Assembly (NCBI RefSeq): GCF_032884065.1
Contig: NC_088867.1
Coordinates: 23,566,281 to 23,630,280 of the forward strand
Direction: 5' to 3'
Source: Artemia franciscana
Lineage: Eukaryota > Arthropoda > Branchiopoda > Anostraca > Artemiidae
DNA length: 64,000 nucleotides
Positions 14,966 to 59,927 of this stretch are shown in pieces. The notes beneath the pieces were generated by a model. It searched no databases. It was not told the DNA's origin and saw nothing but the letters and a program-made list of their open reading frames with translations. The translations under genes and the position numbers were made by a program. The stretch's first letter is position 1, and each line of letters opens with the position of its first letter.

Positions 14966-15074
14966 TTTTAGATATCTCTTCTGAAACTGCTTTATCATAA
15001 ATCCTCCAGTGAATCATAACGAATACGCTTAATTTCCAAAAAATGTTGTATTTTCAAATGATCTTTGAATAGTT

Positions 15075-31812: not shown

Positions 31813-31923
31813 ATGTTTCAAAAAGTTACATTAGATCATAAAGTCTTCATTAAACCACGATTGTTTTCTAAGAATGACTATAATGCAATTGTAACTGCAC
31901 TATCAGAAATATATGGCAACAAG
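31813..31923 (+). CDS. POLR3H: RNA polymerase III subunit RPC8 (POLR3H), first coding exon
   Basis: This exon encodes 37 residues, MFQKVTLDHKVFIKPRL through IYGNK, and is followed by GTATAG. RPC8 is the Rpb7-like stalk subunit of RNA polymerase III; with RPC9 it forms the stalk used in initiation of tRNA and 5S rRNA synthesis. The N-terminal SHS2 domain of the family starts MF and has its first exon boundary at a conserved NK|VV site; this exon ends exactly NK in phase 0, and the exon at 59741 starts VV in phase 0. The start codon is the first ATG of the frame. The intron that follows is about 27.8 kb and contains the rhodanese gene on the other strand. RPB7 is the alternative, less likely from the GLC and GDG motifs in exon 2. 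Confidence 0.8.
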
Positions 31924-32161
31924 GTATAGTCTTATTTGATATTTTTCTGTGAGGTTACATGTCAAGCTAGGCTAGTTTCACATGTTTTTTCTATTTTTAA
32001 ATGGTTGAATTGTTTGGTTTTGCGCATCGTGTCCCTTGTTCTGAGTTTTCTAAGGTCAATAGATGTCCATACCGTTTCAAGTATTAATCCACCTAACCTC
32101 TTAGCATATTTCTTATGAAACACTAATATAGCCTAAGCAATTTTGCTTGTCAGGTGATCAA

Positions 32162-32793
32162 TTGGTAAAATTCTAGTTAATTGACTTCTTGCTATCTCAG
32201 AAAGGATTAAAGTTAGGAAAATGAAACTTTCAGAGATGGGTCTACAGACTTAAGTATGTCTCAGGAAGGTATTTTAAAGCACCCACCCCCACTTCTTTTT
32301 CCTCTAGAGGGCCCTGAAATTTGCCTACATGACAGGTCTATACCTATTGAAATTTTGACAAAACAAAATTTTACCTTAATTTTCAGTTACTAGTTGCCTT
32401 TTCTCTGCCTTTATTTCTGAAAATGAAATTCCTGTTATTTGAGTAGAATTTTGAGCCATATCAATGTTTTTTTTTTTAATTTAGGAAATGTATTTGCATA
32501 TGTTTAAAACCTTGTAAAATGGAGTTGAGCAAAGTTATGAAGCTCAAAACAATTTTTTTGTTCTTGAATTAAGCAGAAGATCTATTTTGCAAGGTTTCAC
32601 TTTTATAACACACATATTTTTAAAGGTCATTAAAGGTCAGGGCCCTCTAGATGGAGAAGGAGTAGAGGTAGTTGCTTCAAAATACCTTCCTGGGACATAC
32701 TTTAGTCTGTAGATTTATTCCTGAAAGTTTCATTTTCCTAACCTAAACCCTTGCTGAGATAGCAAGAAGTCAATTAACTAGAATTTTACCAAG
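32162..32793. mobile_element. Foldback element D
   Basis: Inverted arms 32162-32326 and 32640-32793: TTGGTAAAATTCTAGTTAATT at the left end pairs with AATTAACTAGAATTTTACCAA at the right, and GGGCCCT near 32316 pairs with AGGGCCC near 32642. A loop of about 310 bases shows no coding capacity. It lies in RPC8 intron 1. Confidence 0.8.
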
Positions 32794-32810
32794 CAATCTT
32801 AGTATACTCA

Positions 32811-33410
32811 GAGGTATTTGCCTAAAGAACTAACTGGAGAGAAGGAAATGTGTTAATAAAACAATTCTTATTTTGTAATAGCCTATGCAGAATAATCATA
32901 GTTATCACATCTTGCATATAGCCTCACAATACTTTACCCCACCCCAAATTTACAAATGTATATCTAAAATTGTATATTTTTGATTGCATTATGCCATTCA
33001 TAACTTCTTTTTACCAGATTTTGTTTTGTCATAGTTGATTTAATTTAAAGGTCGGCTACATGGGTTGTGACAACTAATATGCATAGGGAGAATAGATAGG
33101 AAATGTATAATTTGAGCTATGTTTTTATACATCAGGGAGTTTTGCTAAAGTATAATGGGGCTGCATACAAAATGTATTAACTATCATTGTCCTGCATATT
33201 ATGAAGTCCTAAAAATTGATTACTTAAAATAGGAAATATAGGCCTATAATTTAGGCTATATAGGCTAGGCTATTTTCACATTAGGAGAAGATAGGTTATG
33301 GGTAAACTATAGCAAGGCTGTATACAAAATGTGTTAGCTTTTATTATTCTACATGTTATAAAGCAGTATATTTCCTTCACTCTAGTTAGTTCTCTAAGCA
33401 AATACCTACT
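32811..33410. mobile_element. Foldback element E
   Basis: Directly follows element D. GAGGTATTTGCCTAAAGAAC at 32811 pairs with TTCTCTAAGCAAATACCTAC at 33391, and the arms run about 170 bases inward. An internal segment (33100-33200) is a further related copy, with CATACAAAATGTATTAACT. The inner sequence resembles that of the foldback at 9.8-10.5 kb. Confidence 0.65.
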
Positions 33411-33599
33411 CAAATACTGGGATTCAAATAGTACTTTTTCCTATTTGATTTCTGAGTAAATTTGGAGAGAATTACAATACTTACATAGGGACTAGGTAAA
33501 TAGACTAGTTCTACTTATTGTATTGGATTAACAATGCTTCTTGACTACCAAGATCCCTCCGTTGGCCCTGCAGTGCATTCCTGCAGCATTACTCCCCCC

Positions 33600-33670
33600 C
33601 CCCTGTAACATTCAATCTCTGGGTCCTGCATTACTAAGCTAAGGTCAAACCCACTGCACCACCACAGGAC
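33600..33670 (-). repeat. tRNA-derived SINE head or tRNA pseudogene
   Basis: On the minus strand TGGTGCAGTGGG fits the RNA polymerase III A box (TRGYNNARNNGG), and GATTGAATG about 40 bases later is a decayed B box (GWTCRANNC). The ends, CCTGT and ACAGG, can pair like an acceptor stem. No clean anticodon arm is visible, and a G-run follows. More likely a SINE than a functional tRNA. Confidence 0.45.
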
Positions 33671-34499
33671 ACTGGGTCTACTTAATGTCTCTGTTAAGGT
33701 CTTTTCAAACATAATAATGATTTTGCACAGACATCCAGTTTAAATCACTTAATTGTTTCTTTGCCTGTGGAAAACACTCTGTTTAAGGGATTTCCATAGA
33801 ATTGTTAGAACAATAATCAATAGAACTATTTACATGGGCTAAGAGATGTTATGAAGCTTAGGTGCATCTGACTAGCTCACAATAATAAAAAAAACACTTA
33901 CAATTGAAGCAAATTAGTCTGTTCCAAAAGTGCTGTATAATAGTGAACTTACAAATAGCAAAGGCCAATGCTATACTGTATCTATTAGCCTAGCTGTGGC
34001 CTACCTGACATAGTATTTTCCCCAACCACAACTTTCTCATCCCACAGTTGCTTCTTGTATATTTTTTTTTTATCTGATCTACATGTTCTGTTTCTTCAAA
34101 TTTCAAAATTAGTATTATTACCTTAAATTGCAGCTTGGAGCAGTCTAAGCATTTCTTCTTGTAGAGCTCCAGAGTGGACAATTTGAGTTGCATTCAGAAT
34201 TCTTTAGTGACCAGGTGCACTCTGCTGATCTATAGCTTCCAGTTCAGTTTACACTCCCTAGAGGACCACTAAGCTTAATTTTATTTGACTGTTTAATTTA
34301 GTTGATCCTACTCATTACACTAATCAAACACAAATACAAGGGTACTAAACCCCTTTGGAAAGTTTTATTTTAATTAATTTCTGCTTCTTTTTTTATTGCC
34401 AAAGTCTGTTTTAGGTTAATGTACTGAATATTTTATCAGTTTTCATTTTTTTTTGACTATAATTAAAATATTTGATTCTAATTTCATAGTTCTAATTAG
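33671..34499. other. Intron sequence, nothing recognised
   Basis: Part of RPC8 intron 1. No repeat family or exon recognised. Confidence 0.4.
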
Positions 34500-35060
34500 T
34501 TTCTTTTGATTTCATCCACCCTTAATATTCCCTGAAAGGTGTAACTGAATACCATTAGCCAGTCCTGGTATATTGCATCTACATCCTTTTAACAACCAGG
34601 ATACACAGAGTTTTATATTAATTAAACTCTACATCCCCCTCAACATTCTCCAAAAGTTTTATAGCCTTTGCTATTCCTCAGATACTACACATATGCAATT
34701 TTGACAACTGGTATGCACAAAATATCTTTGATTGTCTTTAACATCCCCCTTAGTATTCTAGGAAAGTTTTAACTTCATACTGTAGCTGTTCCTGAGATCA
34801 GTATAGATATGGTTGGGTGCACCCCTTTAACAACTAGGATGCACCTAGTGTCCTGATTTTGTATAACATTCCCTGAAGTTTTCAACTTTTAACCTTAGCT
34901 GTTTATGAAATATTGCAGATAAGTCTTTTTGACAACTTTGCACTATGCCATTTTGGCAAGAAGAATGCCTTTAAACTCTTTTGATATAGTTCAATAGTTT
35001 TAGTTATAATAGTAGAGAATCAGCAAAGCCTTCACTATGTTCAGCATGAACATAGTGTGT
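34500..35060. repeat. Degenerate ~120 bp tandem array H, copy 1
   Basis: Recurring themes ATTCCCTGAAAG(T)TTT, ACTTCATACTGTAGCTGTTCCTGAGAT, TTTTGACAACTnnnATGCAC and CATCCCCCT at about 110-130 base spacing. The same themes form the longer array at 60.3-61.7 kb. Confidence 0.5.
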
Positions 35061-35264
35061 TTTGATTGTATTTGGTATATCAGTATTTCCTCAATGTTTC
35101 ACCTTAATGAATTAAGCCTTTTAGGGGACCCAGGATCAAACATGCTGTCTTTTCTCAAAAAACATTATATCTTAACAATGGGCAACTTATATAACTTACA
35201 GGCTTTGGGGGGTATTGGGGGGGTATGTAAACCATAGAAGCATATTAATTTTACCTTTGGACTA

Positions 35265-35470
35265 GTTTGAACAAAATGGCTATCTCAAAATTTTGATCAA
35301 ATGTATTGGGAAAAAGGGCATGGAAGGGGGCTGATTGCCCTCTAATCATTTTCGACTCTTGAATTGACACTAAAACTTTCAATTTTCAATCAAATGAGCC
35401 CCCCCCCCAAAGTTTGTACAACCACTCCTTCCATATGAATTTGCCCTGGAAAAAAATTATAAGAAGAATA
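35265..35470 (+). repeat. Diverged relic of family C
   Basis: GGCTATCTCAAAATTTTGATC, then GGGAAAAAGGGCATGGAAGG and ATTGCCCTCTAATC follow the order of the C body (compare 22278-22360) but with many differences, implying an older copy. Confidence 0.5.
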
Positions 35471-35479
35471 CATTTAAGC

Positions 35480-36183
35480 CTTGCTGATTTTTGCTATAGG
35501 CAATGCTAGAGTGGGATTGAATATTACTTCTGCTGAAGTTCGGTTAAGATACAACAAACCCTTTTGGCTATTGCTATAATGACATGCATTTATGGTGCCT
35601 TCCTTTCCCCCCCCCCTGCAGTGTTCTGATTGAGCCCTGATCTAAGAAAGGTAAACTAGGAAATTGGCTCTTACTTCCCACCAAGTTTTTCAAGGTCATA
35701 CAACCTCTTCTGATAAACGTCCTGATGACAAAGGTTTAGAGATTTCCTACCCCTTAGACAGGTTGGATTAGGTACTAACTCCCAAAAGGCAGAGCTGTGA
35801 ACATAGGCCATTTCTGCCCACCAGGTTCAGTTGGATTTGATGTTTTTTCTGATAGATGCTGCAATGACAAGAATTCATAGACCACTTGCCCGACAGAGGT
35901 CAAAATAGGTATGACCCTCCCCACCCAACTGCACAACTAGGATACTTAATATTAATTTTGAATAAATTTGTCTGGTATCCAATGCCTCCTTCTTGTATAT
36001 GTCTCAATGACGAGACTTTGGGAACTCTTCCTATTTACCTGCCATAAAAAGTTCAATTAATTTTGGATATCTAGAACGCAGAAGCATCACTTAAGCTTGT
36101 GGTTCATGCCAAGGTTCATCAAGATCTGGCAACCTTTTTTGACAAATATCCTGATAACAGGAGTTCAAGGACTTCTTTATGCT
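35480..36183. repeat. Degenerate tandem-like sequence
   Basis: Themes such as CTGATAAACGTCCTGATGAC, GATGCTGCAATGACAAG, GTCTCAATGACGAG and ATATCCTGATAACAGGAG recur at about 100-130 base intervals. Another old array of the kind seen elsewhere in the window; no coding potential recognised. Confidence 0.4.
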
Positions 36184-36670
36184 CATGGGCTACCCCAGAA
36201 ACAAAGTGTCAAAAAGCACAATTTAGGCACCCCTCTCTAATAAGTTTTCTGATAATAAGAGTCTAGGACACCCCCCACTGTTCTGTAGGGCAAATTCAGC
36301 ACGATCACCCAAAAACACAGCTAGTAAACTTATTCGTGTTTTCAGGAGTTAAGCAGGGTTGTGTTCTATCCCCTTTTATATGGATCATTTTGATGGACTT
36401 TGTCTTAAGGAGAGAAAAGGCAATGGGGAACTGCCCCAGAAATAAAGTCTCAAAAAGCACAATTAGGGCACCCCTCTCTAATAAGTTTTCTGATGACAAG
36501 AGTCTAGGACCCCCCCCCCCCCTGTAATATAGGCCAAATTCAACATGATGACCCAAAACAGAGCTATTAAACTTACTCGTGTTTCTAGGAGTTAAGCAGG
36601 GTTGTGTTCTATCCCCTTTTATATGGATCATTTTGATGGACTTTGTCTTAAGGAGCATGGGAAAGGCAAT
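36184..36670 (+). repeat. ~245 bp tandem duplication carrying a reverse-transcriptase piece
   Basis: Two direct copies (36184-36428 and 36429-36670), each with AAGTTTTCTGATnA(C/T)AAGAGTCTAGGAC followed by a coding stretch for GVKQGCVLSPFIWIILMDFVLR. The duplicated unit starts in the upstream array-like sequence and ends inside the LINE, so it arose after the LINE inserted. Confidence 0.8.
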
Positions 36671-37450
36671 GGCAGACCAAGGAATCAAATGGGGAGGAAA
36701 AACTCTCCCGGACTTGGATTATGCTGATGATTTAAGCATCCTAGATGAAAGTTTGAGCAAAATGAATGTACATTTAGAGGTTTTTTGAGTTGTGGGTGCT
36801 AGAATAGAATTGAAATTAATTTTAAGAAGACTAAGTTGCTAAGGCTAGGAATAAATGAAGATGAACAGGTGATGTTGAGTAACAAAATTATTCATCAGGT
36901 GAGCAGCGAAAATATTAAAAGTAAAATAGCAAAGGCTCAGGGTGTTTTTTTTTTCACAACTAAAAGAAGTTTGGAAGAATAAGAAGATAAGTCTGCAAAC
37001 CAAGAATAGAATATTGGAAGCTACAGTGTTGACAGTGGTTAAATATGGCTCTAAAGTATGGGCGCTCCAGAAAGTGGATAAAGATTTGCTAGGTATTTTC
37101 CAGAGAAATTGCAAACAAATTGTTCTCGGCACCCAGCTGACTGACCAGGTTTCAAACAGTAGGCTTTACGAAAAGTGTGGTTTCATCCCGCTTTCTAGGG
37201 CTGACATGGATAGGGCATGTTCTACGGATGAAGGATGACAGATTGCCAAAGATTGTCCTTTTAGGCCAACTGTCTAGGGCTAAATGGAAAACAGGTCGTC
37301 CTCGTTTGGGGTGGAGAATGACATAAAGAAAGATTTAAAGGAAATGGGAATTTCCTGGGAGGGTGTAAAGAGGGAGGCTTCGAATAGATTGCAATAGAGG
37401 AGGAGTATGGGTGTTGGCTTCTTGTGGCCTGGTGCTCTGGTGAGTTGTTA
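36579..37450 (+). mobile_element. LINE fragment with YADD box (segment S, copy 1)
   Basis: Reads GVKQGCVLSPFIWII (finger/palm motif 4), LDYADDLSILDES (catalytic YADD), then, after a stop in TTTTTTGAGTT, frameshifted pieces: VWKNKKISLQTKNRILEA, VVKYGSKVWALQK, LTDQVSNSRLYEKCG and RLPKIVLLGQLSRAKWK. Upstream endonuclease and RT motifs 1-3 are absent. Frameshifts and stops make it inactive. It is the proximal part of a segment duplicated at 52.4 kb. Confidence 0.8.
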
Positions 37451-38363
37451 TTAGTAGTAGTCGTAGTAAATATTTTATTCAAGTTTGCAATGGAGCAATA
37501 CTTTTCTTAAATAGTTTGCTTTTGCACTAAACATTAACAACATATGATTGCTATATGTGCTTATGAGCCAGCTTCACTTTCAAGTGATATTTCATGGATA
37601 TTTCCCTTTATTTTGCTATAGTATTAGTTTTATATAGGTAAGGATGCCTTTTTGTTTCATTTTCTCGTCCATCAATGGCAAATCTGTAACCTTCAAAGAA
37701 GGCACGTGAGTATAGTGGCATTTCAGAAATATGTCAACTGCAATGATCTACTTGAATTTTGGGCCAATGCTCTTTATTAATCAGTTTTGAGAATTTTGCC
37801 ACAAACATTTTCACATTTTAGACATTTTTTTAATAAATTAAAAAAATTGGATTCGCTGGGGTTGCGTAAAAAGTAGATCATCTTCCAATGAGATCAGATG
37901 AGCTGATTGCAAGATAGATCTCAAGTTACCATTTATACATACCTTCTTTTAGAAGACAAATCGATTAGGTTCATTAAATATGTAACAGAGTAAATTGAAT
38001 AAGGGATATGTATATTCAATCTTAATATTAGTAAAGACTGAGTATACAGAAAAAATACTGAAGGTTTTTGGTGTTTCCTCATGGTTGGATGCAATGAACA
38101 TCCTCAAGTACATTCCTGAATTGGTTTAGTTGAATCAAATTCTAAAAGACTACAATGTTCAGTAATAGATGCGTTTGCACAGAAAGGTGGTTGTGTGACC
38201 TATAGCCTAATATGTTGGTGGCAAAAGTATTTTATAGTACTTGATATTAGTACTTACTTTAGTAAATCTGTTATTAGTTATAGACAAATCTGGTTCATTT
38301 AGGCATAAAATTAGGAGTTGGCAAGAAAGCGGAACTAGTTAATTTGGCTTAACCAGAAACATC
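37451..38363. repeat. Segment S copy 1, non-coding part
   Basis: Continues the duplicated segment: 37,450-38,035 matches 53,225-53,815 closely, and 38,110-38,363 matches 57,330-57,585. About 75 bases at 38,036-38,110 are absent from the second copy, at the place where that copy carries a transposon. Confidence 0.8.
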
Positions 38364-40093
38364 AAACAGGTTGTGGTAACGAACTGTAGTAAGGAGCGAC
38401 CTGGCTCAATAGTAAATGAAACTCTAAAAAACGGAATTTTGATGCTAAAAGATATATTAAAAGAATCGGATTTTTATGCTGATTTTAAATATATAAGTTT
38501 CATCAAATTTAGTCTTTGCCATCAAAAGTTACGAGCCTGAAAAAATTTGTATTATTTTGGAAAATAGGGGGAAACACCCCCTAAAAGTCATAGGATATTA
38601 ACGAAAATCACGCCATCGCATTCAGCGTATCAGAGAACCCTTAGGAAGAATTTCAAGGTCCAATCTACAAAAATGCGGGATTCCGTATTTTTTGCCAGAA
38701 GACAAATCACAGGTGCTTGTTTATTTGTTTTTTTTTTCCCAGGGGTCATCGTATCGACCAAGTGGTCCTAGAGTGTTGCAAGAGGGCTCATTCTAACGGA
38801 AATGAAAAGTTCTAGTGCCCTTTTTAAGTGACCAAAAATTTGGAGGGCACCTAGGCCCCCTCCCACGCTCATTTTTTTCCCAAAGTCAACGGATCAAAAT
38901 TTTGAGATAGCCATTTTGTTCCGCATAGTCGAAAACAATAATAACTATGTCTTTGGGGATGACTTACCCCCCCACAGTTCCTGGGGGAGGGGCTGCAAGT
39001 TACAAACTTTGACCAATGTTTGCATACAGTAAAAGTTATTGGGAAGTGTACCGACGTTTTCAGGGTGATTTTTTGGTTTGGGTGTGGGGCTCAGGGGAGG
39101 GGGTAATATGGGAGGATCTTTCCTTGGAGGAATATTTCATGGGGGAAGAGAAATTCAATGAAAAGGGCGCAGGATTTTCTAGCATTACTATTAAAAAAAC
39201 AATGAAAATATAAACATGAAAAATTTTTTTCAATTGAAAGTAAGGAGAAGCAATAAAACTTAAAACGAACAGAGATTATTACGCATATGAGGGGTTCTAA
39301 AAATACTTTAGCGTAAAGAGCGAGGTATTTAGGAGGAGATAAATACTTCGCTCTTTATGCTAAATTATTTTTAGTAATTTCAACTATTTATTCTACGGCC
39401 TTTCGGATTCAGGGGTAATTCTTAAAGAATTGGGACAAAACTTAAGATTTAGTGTGAAGAGCGAGGTATTAACGAGGGGACAAACCCCCTCATATATATA
39501 ATCAAAGATATAAGAATATAAAAGTTTGTTACGTAAGTTAATTTTTAAGTTACGTATATTTTTTACTAATAAAAACGTTTGTTAAAAATTAAAAGTTCTA
39601 GTTGCCTTTTTAAGTAACCGAAAAATTGGAGGGCAACTAGGCCTCCTTCCCCACCCCATAGTTCTCAAAATCGTCTGATCAAAACTAAGAGAAAGCCATT
39701 TAGCCAAAAAAAGAATTAATATGCAAATTTCATTTTAATAATATATGTACGGAGAGCCAAAATCAGACATGCATTAATTCAAAAACTTTCTGAAATTCAA
39801 TAAAAAAAACAAGTTTTTTGAAGTGAAAGTAAGGAGCGACATTAAAACTTAAAACGAACAGAAATTACTCCGTATATGAAAGGGGCTTTTCCTCCTTGAC
39901 ACCCCGCTCCTTGCGCTAAAGTTTGATTCTTTGTCGCAACTCTACTTTTTAAAACAATAAAAAACTTTAGCGTAAAGAGCGGGGTATCGAGGAGGAAAAG
40001 CCCCTCTCATATATGGAGTAATTTCTGTTCGTTTCAAGTTTTAATGTCGCTCCTTACTTTCATTTCAAAAAACTTGTTTTTTTTTATTTTAAT
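38364..40093 (-). mobile_element. Family A/C element, copy 4 (full length, 1.73 kb)
   Basis: Starts AAACAGG with the decayed terminal hairpin, runs through the C body in reverse, and ends in a complete foldback (39798-40093) closing with TTTTATTTTAAT. Comparison with the unoccupied paralogous site at about 57,585 puts the boundaries at 38,364 and 40,093 within a few bases and shows no target-site duplication. Confidence 0.8.
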
Positions 40094-40434
40094 CTTACCA
40101 ATAATGATATTGTTATCAGCTATGTCAATTTAAAAATTAAAGAGGGGGACAAATTAAACTTTTCGAAATTTAGAGGGGGAAGGGGGCAGTTTTTATGCTC
40201 AATGGTAATACAAAAAAGGAAAATATCCCCCAAAAAAGCGCATTTTTGAGACCCATAAAAAATATACGGGTAAATCCCCCCTCCCAAAAAAATGATACCA
40301 CCAGCTATTCTGAGCAATTACACCATATGTACATAAAACATATGGAATATCTAAAAATGAAAGTATATTCTCATTTCAAAATGAAGACAAAATTACTGTT
40401 GAATAGTTTTCAACTATTTCATACTTAATGGAAT

Positions 40435-40498
40435 TTATTTTTCTTCTTTACTGGAAATTTCGCTGTATTCGGCGAACCCTCCGGGGTAGTGTTTCGTC
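40435..40498 (-). CDS. Single-domain rhodanese, exon 4 (terminal)
   Basis: After the acceptor TTTTCTTTTATAG the exon supplies the last base of Arg168, then TKHYPGGFAEYSEISSKEEK and TAA. NYxGG(F/W)xEW is the usual last motif of rhodanese domains, forming the final helix; HYPGGFAEY here is its counterpart. Codon phase matches exon 3 (AG + G). The stop codon is embedded in AAATAAA, so a poly(A) hexamer overlaps the end of the reading frame. The intron between exons 3 and 4 is 5.3 kb and contains a CR1/jockey-like LINE antisense to this gene. Confidence 0.85.
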
Positions 40499-41399
40499 CT
40501 ATAAAAGAAAACTAACTTAATACATTGTATTTGCCTAAACTTAGGACGTAAAAAAAATGTATTGGTACCGCTAACTTTTAAAAAAACAATTTTGTGCTTT
40601 GGTTTGTAGTTTGGCAAATATTTTGATCTTAAAATAGGAATTCTTTCTGCTTTCCCTCTCCTGTTTCTTGCAAAAAGCATGACCTAATAATGGAATTATT
40701 GGCAAAAATCCATTGCATAGAGGAACGATTAAAATTAAACTAAGATTTAGAATGCAGAAGAAGAATGATATATTAAGTACCTATTGGATTTAAGATGGAT
40801 ATTAATAACCGGTCATATTGATGACAAACAAGTCACATAGTCTATCTTGAAAGAAATTAGAAGATAAGAGATGCATTAGTTAGCATGCAGAGGTCTTGTA
40901 TACTGAAGTTCCTACAGGATCTAAGAGCTAATGTGCCTCAGAAGTCTTAAGGCTTAGTAGATGGTGTTGCGCCATTGAGGCTTGCATACCATGCTACTTC
41001 AGTTTAGCTTGTTTGTGTTTGAGATATAATTATATTTGAGCGATAATAATTTCAACCACTTATGCAGTGACTGTGCTGCTACAAATATATCTAAAAATTG
41101 CAGCAGAAGAAACTGATGTTAGCCTAAAAAGTGTTCTGAAAAGTAAGCGTTTGAACTCCGGAGCGCTGGCGCCATCTCTTATTGAAATTCTCATTATATG
41201 CCAACTGTACAAACCTTACAGAGATGTTACTACTGTTAAGCTTAACCTAAAAAGGAAAACGAGATGGTGTTGGTAGCGCGCAGGTAGAAAGGTCCGGGAT
41301 TGCAGAGAGCACTGTGTTCTTTATAACGGTGATACCAGTATTCTAGTAGTAAACATAGTTCGCAATTACAGCGAAACGAAAAAGTCGAAGAATAAGCAA

Positions 41400-43345
41400 C
41401 ACGAGATATGCTTAGTTACTATACATTGTTCAGAACCTAAACCAACATTACCAACATTGAAGCCCTACTAGCGTGACGAAGCTTTGAACAACTCGGATAA
41501 CCGCCTCCTGTGCTAAAACATGTCACCTTAAGTGCCATAACGAATTTCCCAAGCCTGATTCTGTGCAATTCATGATCACTGAAGAATAAAGTTGACGACA
41601 TAGAACTTGTCGTATGCTTCAACTCGACACCACTAGCAATAATTACCGAATGTTGGGATATTACTTCTGAAATAGGCCCTATAAAAGGCTATCTGAACTT
41701 CTTCAATACCAGGCGTGACAGAGACGACAGACGATGCGGAGGTGGAGTAGGCATCTATTGCCGTGAAGACTTGCCATGCACACAACTTAATAACCCTTCA
41801 GATTCCTGGGATGAAACAAAAAGTTGTTTCAGTCCTCCAAGCTTCCCGAAAAAGATATTTACTGGAAAAAATAGCACCGCTCCTAAAGTCAGGTTCTCAC
41901 AAGTGGCATGGTGCAGTAAAACAGCTTAGTGGGAAAAAGAAATGAAACGAAGTATAAATCAATAACCCAGATGGTAGTCTGATAAAAGCCTCGGAAGTCA
42001 ACGAATTCTTTACTCATATTTGTACTACCCACCCAACCGTAAGTGACGAACAAATGTGTGACATCATTAACAACAGTAGTACAGATGAAATCGTCGAGGT
42101 GTCAGAAATGACAGTTCACTTGCAGTTGGACCTCTACGTGACAGCTGTGCCTCATACCCAGGTGAACTCCCTTTGAAATTACTGAAAGTGTACTCACCTT
42201 TCTTAGCCAAGTCTATCGCATCAGTGATAAACCAATGTTACTTAGAACAATCATTTCCGAAGATGTGGAAAGCTGCATATGTCTGTGTTATACCGAAAGT
42301 CAAGACACTCCAGTCCTGTGACCAACTGAGACCAATATTAATAACTCCTAACTTAGCAAAAGTAGCTGTGTGTCTTATCTACCGTTCTTTGTTATAACAA
42401 ATTTCTTATGCGATCGATCCGTTCCAATATGGTTGCATACGAGGCAGTAGCACGGCAATATATCTAGTGCGAATGTATCACTTAATTGTCAAGTGGTTGG
42501 ACACTTCTAATGTTGCTGTCGACTTATTTTTGGCGTACTACCGAAGAGCATTCAACCTTATCAAACACGTGACCGTATTAATCAATCTGAAAGAAATAGG
42601 AGCTAAAAACAAATACTACTATTAGTGAGAGAATTTTTACAGGGGAGACAGCAATCAGTTTACCCTCTGTTTACATAAAATACCTGCTCTGAGTGGTCAG
42701 AACTAACCTGTAGCTACCCACAAAAGGAACTAAATTAGCTGTTCTTTTATTTCTTGCCGTCATGACCCCCATCCTTGCAGAATTTGGAGAACGTTTCAAG
42801 TTTGTTGATAACTTGTCTACACTTCTCAAATATATAGTCAAAAATGCAGTAGCAAAGCAGCAGTCTGACTTTCTTCACTGATTTCATCAACCAGTGTAGG
42901 TCGAGTAGTCTACAAGTGAATGAACAGGAATCAAAAGTTTTACGAGTTAATCCACTCAAGCGAGATATCACAATCCCAGAAGTTTTGATTCCAATTATTT
43001 CCTCAACAACAATCCTAGGCGTAACGTTTACAAGTGACTGCTCGCTGAAGCTGCATGTAGACAGTATTGTACACGAAGGTCCCTACTCAATCCAGAGTTT
43101 AACAAGTGTGCGCAGGTTAGGCATCTCTGAACTTCAGCTCCTGCTTGCGCATAAAACCTACATCAGGCCTATCCTCGAGCATTGCTGTTCTGTTTGGGTT
43201 CCCCAAACTCATAACATAGCTTATATGTCAGCTGAACTAGAAGAAGTTGAAAAATGCGCCACTAAGATAATACTCGGACCCTGTTTCAGCAACTATGAAA
43301 GTGCCCTTGAGCTCTTGAATTTTCCCACCTTATTTGATTGAAGAT
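41400..43345 (+). mobile_element. LINE pseudogene (CR1/jockey-like), endonuclease to C-terminus
   Basis: In order and broken by stops: an endonuclease segment (ITECWDITSEIG, LNFFNTRRDRDD, CGGGVGIYCREDL, about 41,590-41,780); the start of reverse transcriptase (FPKMWKAAYVCVIPK, 42,250-42,300; FQYGCIRGSSTAIYL, 42,420-42,470); and the post-RT region (KSLKLHVDSIV-type text at 43,040, KTYIRPILEHCCSVWVPQ, 43,160-43,210; CATKIILGP, 43,255). The YADD region is deleted or unreadable. It lies within an intron of the rhodanese gene, antisense to it. Confidence 0.75.
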
Positions 43346-45934: not shown

Positions 45935-46024
45935 CTGTAAGAAAAAAAATATTTATATATACACGAAAATAGCCTCTTTTCAGCGAGATATTATTCCTGT
46001 GGGCTATACCCAAGGCTGGATTAC

Positions 46025-48088: not shown

Positions 48089-48097
48089 CATACATAC

Positions 48098-48286: not shown

Positions 48287-48639
48287 CTGGAAAATGAAAA
48301 AAAAATTGTTGATACAGATATTCATAACTTTTAAGCACTAACTTAAAAGTTGTCAGCTTTGATTTTACTGCACACGTTCAAGTCTTGGTTACATTTGATG
48401 AATAGTGTTTGCAATTTTTCTTCCACCAGAAAATTTTGATTCCATTAGAATACTATAGGTCACACCTTAAAATCTTGTTTAACTATTATTTGAAAAGATG
48501 TATTTCTAATAGATACTGGATACTAATCATCCAGATAAAACTATTAGGGAAAAAAATGGCCTTTTGGGATTTTGTGAGTTCAAAGCACGAGGACAGTTTG
48601 AAACATTAATGTTACGAACACTAAGTTACTTGAATTAGT

Positions 48640-49430: not shown

Positions 49431-51824
49431 GATTTTTTCACTTGTAGACACCTGAAGACTCACAAAGCCTCAAAATGAGTTTTAAATTTTGAAGTTAGAA
49501 ACATTCTTACTGAATATTGGAGCTGGTTATACCATAAAAGTACAGAAAGAAAAACTGTTCGCTTGCACAGTCGTAAAAGTGGTTGAATCAAGTATATTCC
49601 AGATGTAGCGACATTAAAATTGGGCAAGACCAACTATTGTTAATGAAACTTCAATTCATCGTATCTAACATTTATACAAAATAGAAACAAAATAGAACGA
49701 TCCCTCATTATACAGAATCACTGTATAACCTGACACTGCCCCCGATTTTATTATTTGACGATGATAGTATTTTCACTTCATTAAAGGGGAAAAAGGACGA
49801 CTTAATGGAACATGCAGTAGGTGGTACAAGGGCTGATATTGGCATTTCATCCTTTGTACATTGAAGGTGTTAAATATTCCAAAGCAAGGAACTCAGCATT
49901 ATTCTTAAGAAATAAACGAAGATACGCTACTCAGCAAAAGCGTCATACAAACTCGATTAACCTTGAGTCATACACAGTTAAAACCCCGTCTTCATAGTTT
50001 TAAGGGTACTAAACAGTCATTCAGTAGTTGCAGATTAGCAACTGCTGATATTTCTCCTTCTGTACCTGGCAGGAGTTGAATATACTAAAACCAATCGTCA
50101 AAACAATGTATTTAAGTACAAAGGGGATATTCCTTTTAGCGTGTTTTGTTTAGATGATTATCTTTGGTATTAAGGAAAAAAGGAAGATAGACTACTCAGC
50201 AAAGGTGTCATCGAAAACCCGCTTAACCTTGAGTCCCACAGTATTGGCAGATACCATATCTGCTCTACTTAATTAAAGCTCCCTGCTAAGATCGGTTTCA
50301 AACTGGACATCTGGTAGATGATAATGTGAAGCTAATTGGTTATTTAGTGCTAGTTTTCCTAGCTTGTGTTTTTCTAGCGGCTATTATCAAACAGCATGGA
50401 CAAAATTAAAGGATCCCCATATGATTCTACCATAACATATATTTAACGCTTTTGACTTGGTCCTTCGCCCACAAGCTATATTGGGTTCCCTAAAGTGCAG
50501 GACAAGCCTACTCATCTACATCCTTCCAGAGCATTGGTAGCATAAGTATTTATTTGGGTATGAGTGAACAGTGTCTGGAGTCTTTTGAGGAGTGTTAGAA
50601 TTTTAAAAAGTCTTTTGAAATTTACAAAAAATGGATAATGTTACTGCAAGATTTAGAATTCGATCCGATTCAGTGGTTGATTTTTTACTAAATTACCTTT
50701 TGCTAGTGTGACTTGTCTTGAGTTTTGATATTCGTTTTTGTGAAAATGTATTGGCAATTGTATGCGTCTCCTGTTGTAAGTCTTCTGTTTGCATTCTGTA
50801 TAGAGGATTTAAATAGGCTAATATTATTGAAGCTGAGAGCTTATAAATGAAATAAGGACAACTGGGAAAAATACTCAACTTATCCTCTCTTGCATAAAGT
50901 CCCGCCTAAGACATAGCCTGTCAAATGAAACACAACGAAGCAGAAAGTTTTACAATCCTGTTGTGGCTCTTCTGAAGCCTTTATGTCAGCTCATCCTTTT
51001 TTTTACAGAAGTTTCCTATTTTATACATAAACAGGGAGAATTGACACATTACATGAGAAATATGCGAAATTTCAAAGACAATCCTAAAATACCATGCTTT
51101 GGGAGGGGGAATGGAGGGCACACATGGTCAAATGTGTATATAGTCAGGGGTGAATCCTTAGGGCAAAGGGGCATGTGGCCCCTTCCCCTGAAGGTTGAAA
51201 ATTGCAGTAACGGAAGGAACAGAGAAGCAAGACATCTTGATGGGGAACCCAATTTTTTTGCTTCCCCCTTCCCGCTGACGACAGGCATAACTTATGTATC
51301 TTATCCTATACATGCTTCAAATATAACCATATTGGTATCAAAATGGAAATCTTTGAGGAAATGAACTTACAAAAATAAATCAATACACAAATTTTTTCAC
51401 TCACTTGGAGGATAAATCTATGGAGCAGGGCAGGAAAAGTACTATAAATAACCTTAAAAAGGTTGTGTTGTAATCAATTGTAATGAACAATGATTAAAAA
51501 TGATTTCAAATGCTACACTATAAGTTTTCCGTCATACTCCAAAATTTAGGATTTTATAAAATCACTAATTATTATCTACTTCTAGTCGTGTCAGCGTTTT
51601 GACTTGTATATGTCCGTTGTTTAGTATACTAGCCTGAATAATCAGGTGTGGTAGCTTATCTTTTTTTCATTATTAAGCTGAGCACCATATTTTTATGGTA
51701 TTTTCACTTTATAAAACTATATTTTCCTAGAGTTTATGAAAATCAGCTCTCAACTTCTAATAGTTTCGCAGTTGATATAAACCATTTAACTATTATAAAG
51801 AAAAGAAATTACTAAGGCACTCAC
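49431..51824. other. Intron sequence with a weak direct repeat
   Basis: Intron 1 of the rhodanese gene. GCTACTCAGCAAAAGCGTCAT near 49,927 and ACTACTCAGCAAAGGTGTCAT near 50,189, each followed by TTAACCTTGAGTC, are decayed direct copies about 260 bases apart. Nothing else recognised. Confidence 0.4.
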
Positions 51825-51978
51825 ATTTTCCTAGAGCATTATTCCAATTTGAATTATAGGTGGCGTTGATGTAGCTTCTCTCTTGCATTCTCAGATGTAC
51901 CGTCTTTTCTGTATAAATGAGTCCTCTACTAGATATTAAGCATCGCAGCATGGTTGTTCTTAATCTGTTTGAACTCAT
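51825..51978 (-). CDS. Single-domain rhodanese, exon 1 (start and leader)
   Basis: Encodes residues 1-51 plus one base, starting MSSNRLRTTMLRCLISSRG and ending NNALGK before a strong donor GTGAGT. The ATG at 51978 has the context TTAAAATGA; a second in-frame ATG at 51951 (MLRCLISSRG) is an alternative start giving 179 instead of 188 residues. The leader is rich in Arg, Ser and Leu with very few acids, typical of a mitochondrial presequence. It was chosen because the donor is strong, the phase (one base) is exactly what exon 2 needs, and it is on the right strand at a sensible distance. The frame is open further upstream, so the true start is not certain. Confidence 0.65.
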
Positions 51979-52379
51979 TTTAATAATAAGTAAAAAGATA
52001 GTCGAAAAGCCGATCTGTCGACAAAATAGCACTTGATACTCTATCCAACTTGTGAATAGATGGCGGGGAAGTATGCAGCTTTTCACAAATTCCTGGTTTA
52101 AGAGGAATATCCGTTACAAGTTGTGTTTTAGCTTGCAAACATGCTTATTTAGAAAATCAGTGAAAATTGAAGCTCGCTAATAAAACAGTCTAGTATAAAA
52201 ACTGCCCGGAATACCAAACTGAAACAGTAAATTATCTAAAGATTAGCCACTCTCCCATTGCTATTACCATCTTAAGTCAATAGATTCTAATTTGTAAAGC
52301 TGTTTGAATTGCGATTCTGACAGTTTTCACAAAATTTATTCATTACATAAGTTTATTAATATTATGTAAAAAAAAAATT

Positions 52380-53240
52380 TTGCTCAAACTTTCATCTACG
52401 ATGCTGGACTCTCCTGGACTTAGATTATGCTTATGATTCAATCAACATCCTAGATGAAAGTGTGAGCAAAATGAATGAGCTTTTAGTGGTTTTTTGAGTT
52501 ATGGGTGCTAGAATAGGCTTGAGAATTAATGTTAAGAAGACTAAGTCGCTAAGGCTAGGAATAAGTGAAGATGAATAGGGGACGTTGAGTAACGAAATAA
52601 TTGATCATGTGGACAGCTTCACTTACCTTGGTAGTATTATTAGTAACGACGGTGGGAGCAGCTAAGATGTTAAAAGTAGAATGGCCAAGGCTCAGGGTTT
52701 TTTTTTTTCACAGTTAAAAAAAGTTTGGAAGAATAGGAAGATAAGTCTGCAAACCAAGATTAGAATATTGGAACCTACAGTGTTGACAGTGGTCAAATAC
52801 GGCTCTAAAGCATGGGCGCTCCGCAAAGCAGATGAAGATTTGCTAGATATATTCAAGAGAACCTGCCTATGGATTGTTCTGGGCACCCGGCTGACTGACC
52901 GTGTTGCAAACAGTAGGCTGTACGAAAAATGTGGTTCGTTCCCGCTTTCTAGGGCTATAATGAGAGAAAGTTTGAGATTGCTAGGGTGATGTTCTGCGGA
53001 TAAAGGATGACAGATTGCCGAAGATTGTCCTTTTCGGCCAACCGTCTAGGGCTAAATGGAAAGCAGGTCGTCCTCGTTTGGGATGGGAGAATGATATAAA
53101 GAAAGATTTAAAGGAAATGGGAATTTCTCGGAAGGATTTAAAAAGGGAGGCTTTGGATAGATTGGGATAGAAGAGGAGCATGCGTAGCTATGTTGGCTTC
53201 AGGTGGCGTCGAACTCCGGTGAGTTGTTAGTAGTAGTAAC
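52380..53240 (+). mobile_element. LINE fragment (segment S, copy 2)
   Basis: Parallel to 36,710-37,450: LDESVSKMNELL-type text, the shared stop in TTTTTTGAGTT, then VWKNRKISLQTKIRILEPT, VVKYGSKAWALRKADEDLLDIF, LTDRVANSRLYEKCG and RLPKIVLFGQPSRAKWK. It keeps TTCACTTACCTTGGTAGTATT (52,619) that copy 1 lost. The YADD codons read YAYD-like (TATGCTTATGAT). Bases 52,379-52,405 are an inverted copy of 52,449-52,475, forming a hairpin at the left breakpoint. Confidence 0.8.
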
Positions 53241-53815
53241 AATAGTGGTAATTTTTTATTTAAGTTCGCAATGGAGCAATTCTTTTTTTTAATAATTTGC
53301 TTTTTCACTAAATATTAATAATATATGATTGCTATGTGTGCTTATGAGCCACCTTCATTTTCAAGTGATATTTCATGGATATTTTCCTTTATTTTTCTTT
53401 AGTATTAGTTTTATATAGGTAAAGATGCCTTTTTATTTCATTTCCTCATCCATCAACGCCAAATCTTAACCTTCAAAGTAAGCACTGAGTATAGTGGCAT
53501 TTCAGGAATATGTCAACTGCACTGATCTACTTGAATGTTGGGCCAATGCTCTTTATTAATCACTGCTTGAGAATTTTGCCACAAACATTTTCACATTGTA
53601 GAGAAATTTTAAATGAATTAAAAAAATTAAAAAAATGGGAATCGCTAGGGTTGCTAAAAAGTAGATCATCTTCCAATGAGATCAGATGAGCTGAATGCAA
53701 GATAGATCTCAAGCTACCATTTATACATACCTTCTTTTAGAAGACAAATCGACTAGGTTCATAAAATATGTAATCGAGTAAATTGAAAAAAGGGTATGTA
53801 TATTTAATCTAGCCG
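53241..53815. repeat. Segment S copy 2, non-coding part
   Basis: Matches 37,460-38,035 with substitutions and small indels (for example TAGATCATCTTCCAATGAGA and ACCATTTATACATACCTTC). It stops where the family C copy begins. Confidence 0.8.
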
Positions 53816-55285
53816 TAAAACGGAATTTTAATACCAATAGTTACATCAAAAGTATCGTATTTTTGTGCTGATTTTAAATATATAAAGTTTCATCAAGTTT
53901 AGTCTTACCCATTAAAAGTTACGAGCCTGAGAAAATTTGCCTTATTTTAGAAAATAGGGGGAAACACCCCCTACAAGTCATAGAATCTTAACGAAAATCA
54001 CACCACCAGATTCAGCGTATCAGAGAACCCTATTGTAGAAGTTTCAAGCTCCTATCTACAAAAAATGTGGAATTTTATATTTTTTGCCAGAAGACAGATC
54101 ACGGATGCGTGTTTATTTTTTTTTTTTTTGTGTGTTTTTTTATTCCCAGGGGTGATTGTATCGATCAGGTGATCCTAAAATGTTGCGAGAGAGCTCATTC
54201 TAACGGAAATGATAAGTTTTAGTGCCCTTTATAAGTGACCAAAAAAATTTGAGGGAACCTAGGCCGCCTCCCACGCTCATTTTTTCCCAAAGTCACCGGA
54301 TCAAAATTCTGAGATAGCCATTTTGTTCAGCATAGTCGAAAAACCTAATAATTAAGTCTTTCGGGACGAATTAATCCCCCACAGTCCCCTCGGGAGGGGC
54401 TGCAAGGTACAAACTTTGATCTTTGTTTACATATAGTAAGGGTTATTGGGAAGTGTACATACGTTTTTAGGGGAAATTTTTTGTGTTGAAGGAGGGGAGG
54501 CGGGTCGGGGGGGGGGGGGGTTCAGGGAGAATCGTTCCTTGGAGAAATTTATCATGAGAGAAGAGAATTCCCATGAAGGGGCTGCAGGGTTTTCTAGCAT
54601 TATTAAAAAAATAATGAGAAAAAAAAATTCAGCTGGAAGTAAGGAGCAGCATTAAAATCTAAGAAGAACAGAAATTATTACTTAAATAAGGGGGTTCATC
54701 TCCTCCACAATACCTTGCTTTTTACGCTAAAGTATTTTTAGTAATTTCAGCTATTTATTCTACGGCCTATGTGATTCAGGGGTCACTCTTAAATTATTGG
54801 GGCAAAATTCAAGCTTTAGTGCAAAGAGCGAGGTATTGATGAGGGGGCGAACTCCCTCAAATACGTAACAAAAATATACAAATATAGAATTTCATTACCT
54901 AAGTTAATTCGTAAGTTACGTATATTTATTACTAATAAAAACGTTCGTTAAAAAAAATAAAAAAGTTGTAGTTGCCTTTTTATGTAACCAGAAATTTAGG
55001 GCAACTAGGTCTCCTCCCCCACCCCCTTTTTTTTATCAAAATCGTTCGATCAAAACTATGAGAAAGTCATTTATCCGAAAAAAAATTCATATGCAAATTT
55101 TGTTTCAATTATTCCTGTCCGGTGAGCCAAAATTGAAACATGGATCAATTCGAAAACGTTCAAAAATTAAATATAAAAAACAAGTTTTTTTACTGTAAGT
55201 AAGGAGCGACATTAAAACTTAAAACGAACAGATTCCGTTTATGAAAGGGGTTGCCCCCTCCTCAACGCCTCTCTCTTTACGCTAA
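53816..55285 (-). mobile_element. Family A/C element, copy 5 (split, end-truncated)
   Basis: The terminal hairpin is missing; the element starts inside the body (AAACGGAATTTTAATACC) and runs to the left arm of its foldback at 55,165-55,285. The right arm is found at 57,165-57,325, after the family B element that was inserted in the loop. Confidence 0.75.
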
Positions 55286-57160
55286 AGTTTTTTATGGCAC
55301 TTGGTATCTACCAAGTGACATACAGGGATCGCAAATTCTGTCGGTCGGTCTGTCTGTCTGTCTGTCTGTCCCGGTTTGGCTACTTTAGACACTTCCAGGT
55401 AAGCTAGGCTGATGAAATTTGGCAGGCGTATCAGGAACCAGACTAGATTAAATTAGAAATTGTCTTTTCTCCGATTCGACCATCTGGGGGGAGGGAGGGT
55501 GTTTGACGGTTAAATCGAAAAAATTAGAAAAAATGGGGTATTTTAAACTTACGAACGGGTGATCGGATCTTAATGAAATTTGATTTCTGGAAGGATATCG
55601 TGTCTCAGAGCTCTTATTTTAAATCCCAACCGGAACCGGTGATATTGGGGGTAGTTGGGGGGGGGATCTAAAATATTGGAAAACCCTTAGAGTGGAGGGA
55701 TCAGGATGAAACTTGGTGGGAAGCATAACTGGAACGGATCCGCTCTCTTTGGGGGAGTTGGGGGGGATTTTTTGTTCTGAAAAAATTAGGAAAAATGAGG
55801 TATTTTCAACGTACAAAGGAGTGATCGGATCTTAATGAAATTTCATATTAAGAAGATCCTAGTAACTCAGATCTCTTATTTTAAATCCCGGCCGGATCCA
55901 GTGTCATTGGGGGGGGGGGAGTGGAAATCTTGGAAAACGCTTAAAGCGGAGATATTTGGATGAAACTTGGTGGGAAGAATGAGCACAAGTCCAAGATACG
56001 TGATTGACATAACCGGACCGGATCTTCTCTCTTTGGTGGAGTTGGGGAGGGGGGAGTAATACGAAAAAATTAGAAAAAATGAGGTATTTGTAACTTACGA
56101 ACCGGTGATCAGATCTTAATGAAATTTGATGCTTATAAGGATCTTGTGCTTTAGAGCTCTTATTTTGAATCCCAATCGGATTTGGTGACATTGGGGGAGT
56201 TGAAGGGGGAAACCGGAATTCTTGGAAAACGTGAAAGTTGAGGTATCTTTATCTTACGAATGGGTGCTCTAATCTTAATTAAACTTGATATATAGAAGGA
56301 TCTTATGTCTCAGATGCTCCATTTTCAATTTGATTCCGATCCGGGGACATAGGGGGTTGGAGGGGGGAAACCGGAAATCTTGGAAAACGCTTAGAGTGGA
56401 GCGATCGGGATGAAAATTGATGGGAAGAATAAGCATAAGTTATAGATACGTGATTGACATAATTGGAACGGATCTGATCTCCTTGGGGGAGCCGAGGGGT
56501 GTTAATTTTAAAAAATTTAGGTATTTTTAACTTAAGAATGGGTGACCAGATCTTAATGAAATTTGATATTTAGAAGGAACTCATGTCTCAGAGCTCATTT
56601 TTCAAGTCCCGACCGGATCTGCTGACATTGAGGGTAGTTGGAGGGGAAACCGGAACTCTTGTAAAACGCTTGGAGTGGAGAAATTGGGATGAAACTTGGT
56701 GGGTAGAATAAGCAAATGTCGTAGATACGTGATTGACGTAATCGTACTGGATCCGCTCTCTTTAGGGTAGTTGGGAGGTGGGGTTCAGTGCTTTGGCGAG
56801 TTTGGTGCTTCTGGACGTGCTAGGACGATTAAAATTGGTCGGCGTGTCAGTGAGCTGCACGAATTGACTTGATAAAGTCGTTTTCCCCGATTCGACCATT
56901 TGGGGGGGCTGAAGGGAGAGGAAAAATTAGAAAAAATGAGGTATTTATGACTTACGAGTGGGTGACCGGGTCTTACTGAAATTTTGATATTTAGAAGGAC
57001 CTCGTGACTCAGAGCTTTTTTTTAAATCCCAACCGGCATTAAGCCTCTGATTTTCTTTTTAAATCAATCTATTGATTGTTAGAATTTTGCTAGAGCTCAT
57101 AACATATGAGCTCTTGGCTCTTCCGGCATCGTCACAAGTTGCATATGAGCTCTAACCTCT
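55286..57160 (+). mobile_element. Family B array element, copy 3
   Basis: Starts ATGGCACTTGG with the hairpin CACTTGGTATCTACCAAGTG, then a GTCGGTCTGTCTGTCTG microsatellite (55,340-55,370) and about six array units (GAAATTTGAT-type strings at 55,577, 55,837, 56,121, 56,281, 56,560 and 56,979). Ends near CGTCACAAGTTGCATATGAGC. It is shorter and more diverged than copies 1 and 2. No protein is encoded. Confidence 0.75.
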
Positions 57161-57164
57161 TGTT

Positions 57165-57325
57165 ATTGCTTGAAAAAGTAGTGTCGTGAGAAAGAGTCAA
57201 ACTTAGCGTAAAGAGCCAGGTGTTGAGGAGGGGACAACCCCTTTCATATACGGAATAATGTTTTTCGTTTTAAGTTTTAATATCGCTCCTTACTTGCAGT
57301 TAAAAATATTGTTTTTTATATTTAA
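57165..57325 (-). repeat. Right foldback arm of family A/C copy 5
   Basis: TTAGCGTAAAGAGCCAGGTG, then the complement of the family core and the end TTTATATTTAAT. It completes the element interrupted by family B copy 3. Confidence 0.75.
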
Positions 57326-57329
57326 TTAA

Positions 57330-57625
57330 TTCCAGGACGGATTTAGTTGAATCGACTTCTAAAAGACTATAATATTCAGTAATAAATGTGTTGGCACAGA
57401 GAAGTGGTTTTTTGACCTATAGCCCAATATGTTGGTGGTAAAAGTTTTTTATAGTACTTGATATTGATATTTACTTTAGAAAAGCTTATATTAGTTAAAG
57501 ATATATCTGGTTCATTGAGGCATAAAATTAGGAGCTAATAAGAAAGTGGAGCTAATCAATTTGGCTTAATCAGAAAGACCTTACCAATAATGAGTTTATC
57601 AGCTATGTCAATTGAAAAAATTGTG
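57330..57625. repeat. Segment S copy 2, distal part (empty site)
   Basis: Matches 38,110-38,363 and, without interruption, 40,094-40,140. The uninterrupted string CAGAAAGACCTTACCAATAATG at 57,575-57,597 is the unoccupied version of the place where copy 1 carries the 1.73 kb A/C element. Confidence 0.8.
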
Positions 57626-57849
57626 AGGTTATTAAAATTATGTTAAAAAAAAATAACAGCCAGATTCAAACGCTGTTAAAAAAAAAATCGTAATAGTTAT
57701 AATTCAAATTTGGTGCTAAAAATTAATATTAAATATTATCCATTAAAGGTCTGAATTTTTTTTCAAATCTAGCTTCCGACTGTTAAATTCTGGCTCGTAA
57801 GATAATTTAATTTAAAAATTGTTGCAAAAATGAACCGAGAAGATAGATT

Positions 57850-58830
57850 ATTATTGCTACTACTAACAATTCACTGTATCGCCATGCCGCCTGGTCAAAT
57901 GCTCTGATCAGCTTATTTGCAGATTTACAAGAAAGAAGTGCTAGCTCTTATATTAGGAGGGATCCATGTGAATTTTCGGTTGACGTAGGTCGGTCGATCC
58001 TAAGTCCAACGCTAAATGATATTGTAAGATGAGCTTTAAATAAAAAAGACATAGAAGTACTGACGGCTTACCCCAGCAAATTGACATTATTACTTGATTT
58101 ATTGATTACTAATTGAAATTTACAATATCAGAAAAATAGTTGGATTCAAAAATTGTTAAAACCCAGCCTGGTATTTTTTTATGCTAAAACCAGACAACAT
58201 TTTCTACTAGTTGACAGGATTGATTTTTTGAATCTGAGCATTTTCAGTGAAGTTGGCTTTTGTTTTTAGTTTCCGAAAATCGTCCTGCAATTGATTTAAA
58301 AGTCGAGGTACAGGCTGTTCAGATCAACTCGGTGCCATGGATGTGTTGGACCACATTCTGTCACTGTCTTCGATTTTCTGTTTGAAGAGGAACGACATCC
58401 AGCCACAATTTGTCTCATTTATGTCTGTACTTATGGGATTCGCCCAGAGACTCCAGGTCTTTCTTTACTGTGGCACGCCGTGATTTAGTTCCCCATCTTT
58501 GCTGATTCCTCCGCTGGTATGGCGGGTTTTAATTCAAGGAACTGGCGGGTCAGTTACATGTTTGGATACCCCATAACGTGCGCAAGCCACCTGAGCCTTC
58601 TACTCTTGACGATTGTGGATAACGAATACTTATGCATGAAACGGTCGTTGTTTATCCTATGGCTAAGTTTGAGGCGACAAATGGCTCCTTGGCATTTCCG
58701 ATCAAAGATGTCAAGTGAGCGTTCTTCTGCCTTTATCAGTCAAGTTTCTCACCCATATAACAAAATGAAGCGGATATACGCCACATAGACTCGGATTTTG
58801 GTCTTCAGGCTTTTTTTATTTTAAATTTTT
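57850..58830 (-). mobile_element. LINE C-terminal fragment
   Basis: Read on the minus strand: TKIRVYVAYIRFILLYG, then RSLDIFDRKCQGAICRLK, SRRLRWLAHVMGYPN and AKMGN followed by stops; this is the segment after the RT palm in RTE/L1-like LINEs. Near 57,850-57,880 the minus strand reads GTGAATTGTTAGTAGTAGC, similar to the 3' ends of the LINEs at 37,440 and 53,220. Confidence 0.65.
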
Positions 58831-59740
58831 GATTTTAGTTTTATTGGTCGTATGTTGTTCTAAGTCTTTTTCTTTTCTATATTTATGTTTTTCTGAGGAC
58901 GGCCCTTGTACATAAGGCCGAAATATTCATTCAAATTAGAATTCCACTGTCTTACGAAAATAATTCCCTATTGTTCTTCTTTTTTTATGTTTGTGATGGA
59001 AAGGCAGTGGTCTAGGTCGCTATTTATACAGAATCCATTTAAAATATTCTTTTCCTAACCAATGGTAAAGATTAAGTCAGTTAAAAATGAACAAATAATT
59101 TTTTTTTAAATCCACAAAAGAAGTTTCTCGGTAAAAATAAGCGGAAATTTACGCAAATCTTGTTCTATGACCCTTTAGATAATTCAACACTTTCCTTATT
59201 TAGTCCTTTTAATTTTTTTGTTTTTTTCATCTTTATTCTTATGCAAAATAAAAAACGGTAAGCTTTTTTCTAGCATTTTTGAAAGTAGTCAAATCTCTCT
59301 TAGGAAGCAGTTTGAACCCTGGGCCTTTCAACGTCGGAAGTAGAATGAATAGACATGCAATACATTTAAATAAATTAGATATCAAATGAAACACTGGATA
59401 TAAAAAAAATAACATAAATTGAAATTCATCGTCCTGCATTTTTTGAGATGAATCATAAAATTTGAGTAAAAATAATAAAAGAAGTATATACAAGAAAAAA
59501 AAGTTAACCACACAGTTCAAACTGTCGTTGTTTCTACCGACTTTTACTCGTGCATTCTTAATTTGTGTGTATACATTTTCGATCAATATTCAAAGTTGTG
59601 TCCTACTCTATAATTTAAAATCCAACATTTATCTTCATTAGCCTCCCCAACCCCTTCCAACCAATGCCTCAAGTATGTTCACATTTAAGAAAGATACCCT
59701 GCTACATTTAATTTATCGTAAAAGGATATATCTTTTTTAG
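58831..59740. other. Intron sequence, nothing recognised
   Basis: 3' end of RPC8 intron 1. AT-rich with T-runs; no exon or repeat recognised. Confidence 0.4.
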
Positions 59741-59927
59741 GTTGTTCCAGAACTAGGTTTATGTGTGTCTATTGATCGCCTTTTGAAAGTTGGTGATAGG
59801 ATAGTGCCTCAGTCAGGTGATGGATCTTATGAAGTTGCGGTCACGTTTTCAGCTTATTTTTTCTGCCCTTTCATTGGAGAGATTATCGAGGGAAATATCT
59901 CAGGAATGACATCTGAATCAGTAAAAG
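59741..59927 (+). CDS. POLR3H: RNA polymerase III subunit RPC8 (POLR3H), second coding exon
   Basis: Encodes residues 38-99 plus one base: VVPELGLCVSIDRLL, SGDGSYEVAVTFSAYFF, CPFIGEIIEGNISG. This is the second half of the SHS2/Rpb7 N-terminal domain. GLC near the start, GDG in the middle and the PF.xEI..G.I.G string are those of RPC8; RPB7 has different residues in each place. The acceptor is TATCTTTTTTAG. Two donors are possible, GTAAAA after 59927 or GTAAAAG after 59920; the first keeps a conserved SxV and is preferred. The C-terminal OB-fold exons (about 100 more residues in relatives) are not visible and should lie to the right of the window. Confidence 0.85.

Follow-up and report, generated by a model that had tools for sequence, protein, structure and literature searches.

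This analysis concerns a 64,000-nucleotide stretch of Artemia franciscana contig NC_088867.1 (positions 23,566,281 to 23,630,280 of the forward strand), hereafter the window. In it, the first two coding exons of a gene for RPC8, an RNA polymerase III (Pol III) subunit of the Rpc25/POLR3H family, enclose a long intron, and the opposite strand of this intron carries a predicted four-exon gene for a rhodanese. The window was analysed together with flanking sequence from contig C5 (60.9 Mb), 60 kb on its downstream side and 20 kb on its upstream side, 144 kb in all. In window coordinates, and with a slash marking a splice site here and below, the two genes are laid out as follows.

31813..31923, plus strand: RPC8 coding exon 1, residues 1-37, with ATG start and donor GTATAG
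31924..59740, plus strand: RPC8 intron 1, 27,817 bp, phase 0, which encloses the rhodanese gene
59741..59927, plus strand: RPC8 coding exon 2, ending in phase 1, donor gtaaaa
95737-95866, plus strand, beyond the window end on the same contig: RPC8 exon 3, donor GTGAGT
51825..51978, minus strand: rhodanese coding exon 1, 154 nt, with start codon and basic N-terminus
48098..48286, minus strand: rhodanese coding exon 2, 189 nt, ending ...NIP/L in phase 1
45775..45934, minus strand: rhodanese coding exon 3, 160 nt, with the active-site loop CLAGIRS, C at residue 148
40435..40498, minus strand: rhodanese coding exon 4, 64 nt, with TAA stop

All rhodanese coding exons (40435-51978, minus strand) fall within the single RPC8 intron at 31924-59740 on the plus strand, and the inner gene possesses a complete frame of its own, read in the direction opposite to that of its host. 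The nearest RPC8 exon lies 7.8 kb from the rhodanese start and 8.5 kb from its stop. A preliminary description of this DNA had proposed the same nesting on opposite strands, and it is upheld together with the six exon coordinates given there, the phase-0 junction between RPC8 exons 1 and 2, and the joining of the rhodanese exons into 188 residues. The locus is very probably an ordinary host/nested pair, in which a four-exon rhodanese gene sits whole in intron 1 of RPC8, on the other strand and with no functional link to it.

The structure of the host gene is coherent across three exons. The 3' edge of exon 1 reads ...GGCAACAAG/gtatag, while exon 2 is preceded by TTTTTTAG, opens at the acceptor tttttag/GTTGTT and closes at AAAAG/gtaaaa; the two exons join in phase 0 across an intron with GT and AG ends. 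Exon 3 lies 31.7 kb past the window end, after a second intron of 35.8 kb. It is preceded by TTTTTTTCCAG, and its frame is completed by the phase-1 G that ends exon 2, the join yielding VSLGFFDDISVPKSLLPGNTVFDEVEQVFVWNVDEDIQFRIETG. The placement of both RPC8 exons on one scaffold, on which the preliminary description depended, is supported: exons 1, 2 and 3 stand on the same contig, the 144 kb contain no N, and exon 3 continues in phase. The host is read as far as residue 143, short of the second half of its Rbc25 domain.

The family identity of the host is carried by the joined exons. Exons 1 and 2 together match Pfam SHS2_Rpb7-N at 3.5e-7 (30.7 bits against a cut-off of 24.8), and among proteins of solved structure they match RPC8 at 3.1e-14 and 3.3e-14 (yeast), 1.2e-9 (3ayh) and 2.6e-8 (human, 7a6h). 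Adding exon 3 brings in Pfam RNA_pol_Rbc25 at 57.3 bits, over a cut-off of 25.1 and across profile positions 1-60 of 121, and strengthens the matches of the 143-residue join to solved RPC8 to 6.3e-24 (yeast), 6.8e-24, 1.5e-21 (human) and 1.4e-20. The protein thus read has the SHS2 domain and the first half of the Rbc25 domain, with residues 1-143 collinear with RPC8/Rpc25/POLR3H, so that the identification as RPC8 made in the preliminary description stands.

Exon 1 alone is the weakest link in this chain, as it finds three solved matches up to E 10, all of them RPB7, the best at 0.17. An identity as RPB7 was nevertheless rejected: this weak leaning of exon 1 is set against a joined protein that matches solved RPB7 at 1.2e-6 at best and RPC8 some 17 orders of magnitude better. 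The placement of exon 1 was controlled by scoring every open ATG frame that runs for precisely 37 codons up to a GT, no other lengths being admitted, against RPC8 residues 1-37; the score is the better of those to human and fly RPC8, with a provisional fly reference. The exon at 31813 scores 32. Among the 8 plus-strand candidates in the 79.7 kb upstream of exon 2 it is followed by one at -5, and the 16 candidates on the minus strand of the 144 kb reach 0 at best. A chance origin of the RPC8 exons was rejected on this control and the matches of exon 1 and of the joined protein.

Certain properties of the host, and the nature of the evidence, weigh against an ordinary host/nested pair. The host protein is strongly diverged, being identical to human RPC8 at 55 of 142 aligned residues (38.7%, part of the human sequence being provisional), and among the matches in the Protein Data Bank (PDB) it is closer to yeast than to human. 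No convincing last exon or exons of RPC8 were found in the 28 kb after exon 3, whether by tblastn or by motif searches, one of which was tied to splice acceptors. The divergence exceeds what would be expected of an animal RPC8, and the host might be a copy that is decaying or has become specialised. In addition, both genes are predicted from genomic sequence, as are their transcription and splicing. For comparison, human and fly RPC8 are identical at 93 of 145 positions (64.1%), with provisional sequences for fly and for part of human.

Both the low identity to human RPC8 and the missing last exon would suit a host that is a second, diverged copy of RPC8, either a paralog or a decaying duplicate, with the standard gene elsewhere in the genome. 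This is considered unlikely. Across more than 64 kb, the three exons remain open and in phase, with their splice sites intact; introns here measure tens of kilobases, which makes a last exon more than 28 kb away unremarkable; and the whole lineage may simply evolve fast.

The nested gene is compact in coding terms. Its four exons sum to 567 nt, or 188 residues closed by TAA, and are separated by introns of 3,538, 2,163 and 5,276 bp, all GT-AG and in phases 1, 1 and 2; upstream of the ATG, the genomic frame is blocked by stops. Pfam Rhodanese matches residues 79-181 in a single stretch at 7.7e-11 (42.8 bits against a cut-off of 22.2), and 8 distinct sequences of solved structure match at E of 0.001 or better, led by yeast RDL2 at 3.5e-18 and including human TSTD1 at 4.4e-15. 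Rhodaneses carry their catalytic cysteine in a CxxGxR loop, and the nested protein fits this motif, with the cysteine of CLAGIRS aligned to those of RDL2 CAKGVRA and TSTD1 CQMGKRG. The earlier identification of a single-domain rhodanese is thereby corroborated.

The likeness to RDL2 and TSTD1 consists in one rhodanese domain, an alignment spanning that domain and a cysteine loop at the same aligned place. The differences are an N-terminal stretch of about 75 residues before the aligned domain, which starts at chain residue 40 in RDL2 and 27 in TSTD1, and the absence of R at the sixth loop position in human TSTD1, as printed in its alignment to CLAGIRS. Residues 1-70 contain 10 R/K and 2 D/E, the first acidic residue being at position 24, and this basic N-terminus suggests a mitochondrial presequence. 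The product of the nested gene is predicted to be a thiosulfate sulfurtransferase of the RDL2/TSTD1 kind, probably mitochondrial.

It is very improbable that this rhodanese gene is a defunct copy, or that its open frames line up by chance. Such a reading draws on the purely genomic basis of the gene model, and it must contend with a 188-codon frame intact over four exons, three GT-AG introns, a preserved CxxGxR loop, an E value of 3.5e-18 to a solved rhodanese, and a related exon elsewhere in the genome that keeps the same splice position.

That related exon came from a search of the genome with Pfam Rhodanese. The search treats each exon separately and missed the nested gene, so that its 6 places are a lower bound on the number of rhodaneses. 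One of these places, L006 on contig C16, is matched by the nested protein (tblastn, E up to 10), with 43.6% identity to rhodanese exon 2 over 39 residues. The L006 exon ends AAT GTC CCA C/gtaaga, where the nested exon ends AAT ATC CCT T/gtatgt, and the splice position and phase are identical. Because it shares an intron position and phase with L006, the nested rhodanese belongs to an intron-bearing family and is no spliced retrocopy. Retroposition was accordingly rejected as the origin of the gene, which retains three introns, one of them matching a related gene in position and phase.

Two observations on the other rhodanese loci may be added. At L006:1584-2464, a 73-bp unit repeated 12.1 times covers the exon end and the splice donor, both of which have thus been copied in tandem. 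On contig C1680 (G000:C1680:17999-18775), L001 and L002 form two rhodanese domains in what is apparently one uninterrupted frame of 283 residues, which could stem from bacterial contamination or be a gene without introns.

The setting of the nested gene is rich in repeats. By blastn at E 1e-10 or better, with self-matches within 5 bases of the diagonal excluded, 10,662 of the 27,817 bases of RPC8 intron 1 recur elsewhere in the 144 kb (at least 38%), compared with 0 of the 567 rhodanese exon bases. Expansion of the intron by repeats would explain how room for a gene came about. A further nested gene was sought by comparing 10 open frames of at least 110 residues (of 33 of at least 80) in intron 1 with Pfam; no family scored above its cut-off, in a comparison that small exons would escape. 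Below the cut-offs, the frame at 59242-59589 on the minus strand gave SCAMP at E 0.0052 and DHHC at 0.016, that at 55907-56248 on the minus strand gave TMTC_DUF1736 at 0.056, and the open frame containing rhodanese exon 3 gave Rhodanese at 0.053.

An ordinary host/nested pair would work as follows. Each gene would be read from its own RNA polymerase II (Pol II) promoter; Pol II transcribing RPC8 would cross the rhodanese gene antisense, and the resulting RNA would leave with the spliced intron. The rhodanese gene could have moved there at the DNA level with its introns in place, or the intron could have grown around it, since a gene that keeps its introns, one of them matching a relative in position, speaks against retroposition. 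The two products would be functionally unlinked, mere coexistence being the most likely relation between them.

Published surveys place such arrangements among common ones. In C. elegans, 567 opposite-strand nested protein-coding pairs have been counted, and several hundred opposite nested protein genes occur in many animals, including worm, fly and human (PMC12274878). Nested genes make up about 6% of genes in Drosophila, 2.1% in C. elegans and 0.5% in human, with the opposite direction frequent (PMC3786989), and the human genome is credited with 158 nested protein genes, about one third of them tandem (PMC3192792). The preliminary description's view of the head-on nesting as unusual is therefore not supported. 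A narrow literature search brought up, judging by the listings, work on a human syndrome and on a Trichoderma deletion but no description of an RPC8-rhodanese nested pair, and the pair is not firmly claimed to be undescribed.

The preliminary description also held that the arrangement could couple the expression of the two genes, and for this pair nothing was found in its favour. Under such coupling, nested transcription or enhancers would alter RPC8 output, or the reverse, with Pol III capacity tracking sulfur metabolism. One precedent exists in C. elegans, where the nested gene ceh-10 induces its host polq-1, a demonstrated case of coupling (PMC12274878); in human, nested genes are also able to disturb host splicing and polyadenylation (PMC3192792). 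On the other hand, co-expression averages lower in opposite nested pairs than in neighbours that are not nested, though it is not rare (PMC12274878), and the rhodanese start and stop here are kilobases from any RPC8 exon. Coupling is held to be highly unlikely. In fly and mammal, nested genes are reported as not likelier to diverge in expression, but where those of fly do diverge, the shifts are larger (PMC13343718). All these reports concern other genes than the present two. Still less probable is a reading in which the two genes are a regulatory pair kept in evolution, Pol II passing antisense so as to link the abundance of a stalk subunit of Pol III, and with it tRNA supply, to mitochondrial sulfur metabolism.

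The two closest parallels are known in more detail than the Artemia pair. Like the rhodanese, ceh-10 is a protein gene contained entirely in an intron of a host that is unrelated to it, on the opposite strand; there, co-transcription was established by experiment and the nesting occurs in all six nematodes listed (PMC12274878), whereas here the arrangement is read from sequence. In Drosophila, 2mit within tim2 is likewise a multi-exon protein gene in a host intron on the opposite strand, for which the authors see no overlapping adult functions; the gene families are other ones, and the nesting is reported for Apis and 21 Drosophilidae (PMC3786989).

For annotation, the locus matters in that an RPC8 gene of more than 64 kb with another gene in its intron could lead automatic models to split the host or to merge both. 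Biologically, it is a further case of opposite-strand nesting, a class whose members number in the hundreds in those animal genomes where they have been counted. The pair would gain greater weight only if the nesting proved to be old and linked to expression.

Further observations concern the surroundings of the host. Some 2 kb upstream of RPC8 exon 1, two inverted arms of about 2.5 kb (12513-14968 and 27226-29793) stand 12.3 kb apart; both abound in tandem copies of a unit of some 290 bp, and their best blocks are 92-98% complementary, off-register unit pairs being lower. The arms could have arisen as a recent foldback, or they could be the termini of a large transposon. Scans of the window for tRNA genes and for Rfam families at gathering thresholds returned none. 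An open frame of 590 codons at 62670-64439 extends beyond the window. Its part inside the window from 62715 onwards, 428 residues, has no Pfam match at E 0.01, and the frame may encode a mobile-element protein. Inside RPC8 intron 2, at window coordinates 67776-69128 (L007:3776-5128), lies an open frame of 451 codons with a DUF4371 match of 42 bits against a cut-off of 32.1, which we take to be a hAT-like transposon remnant.

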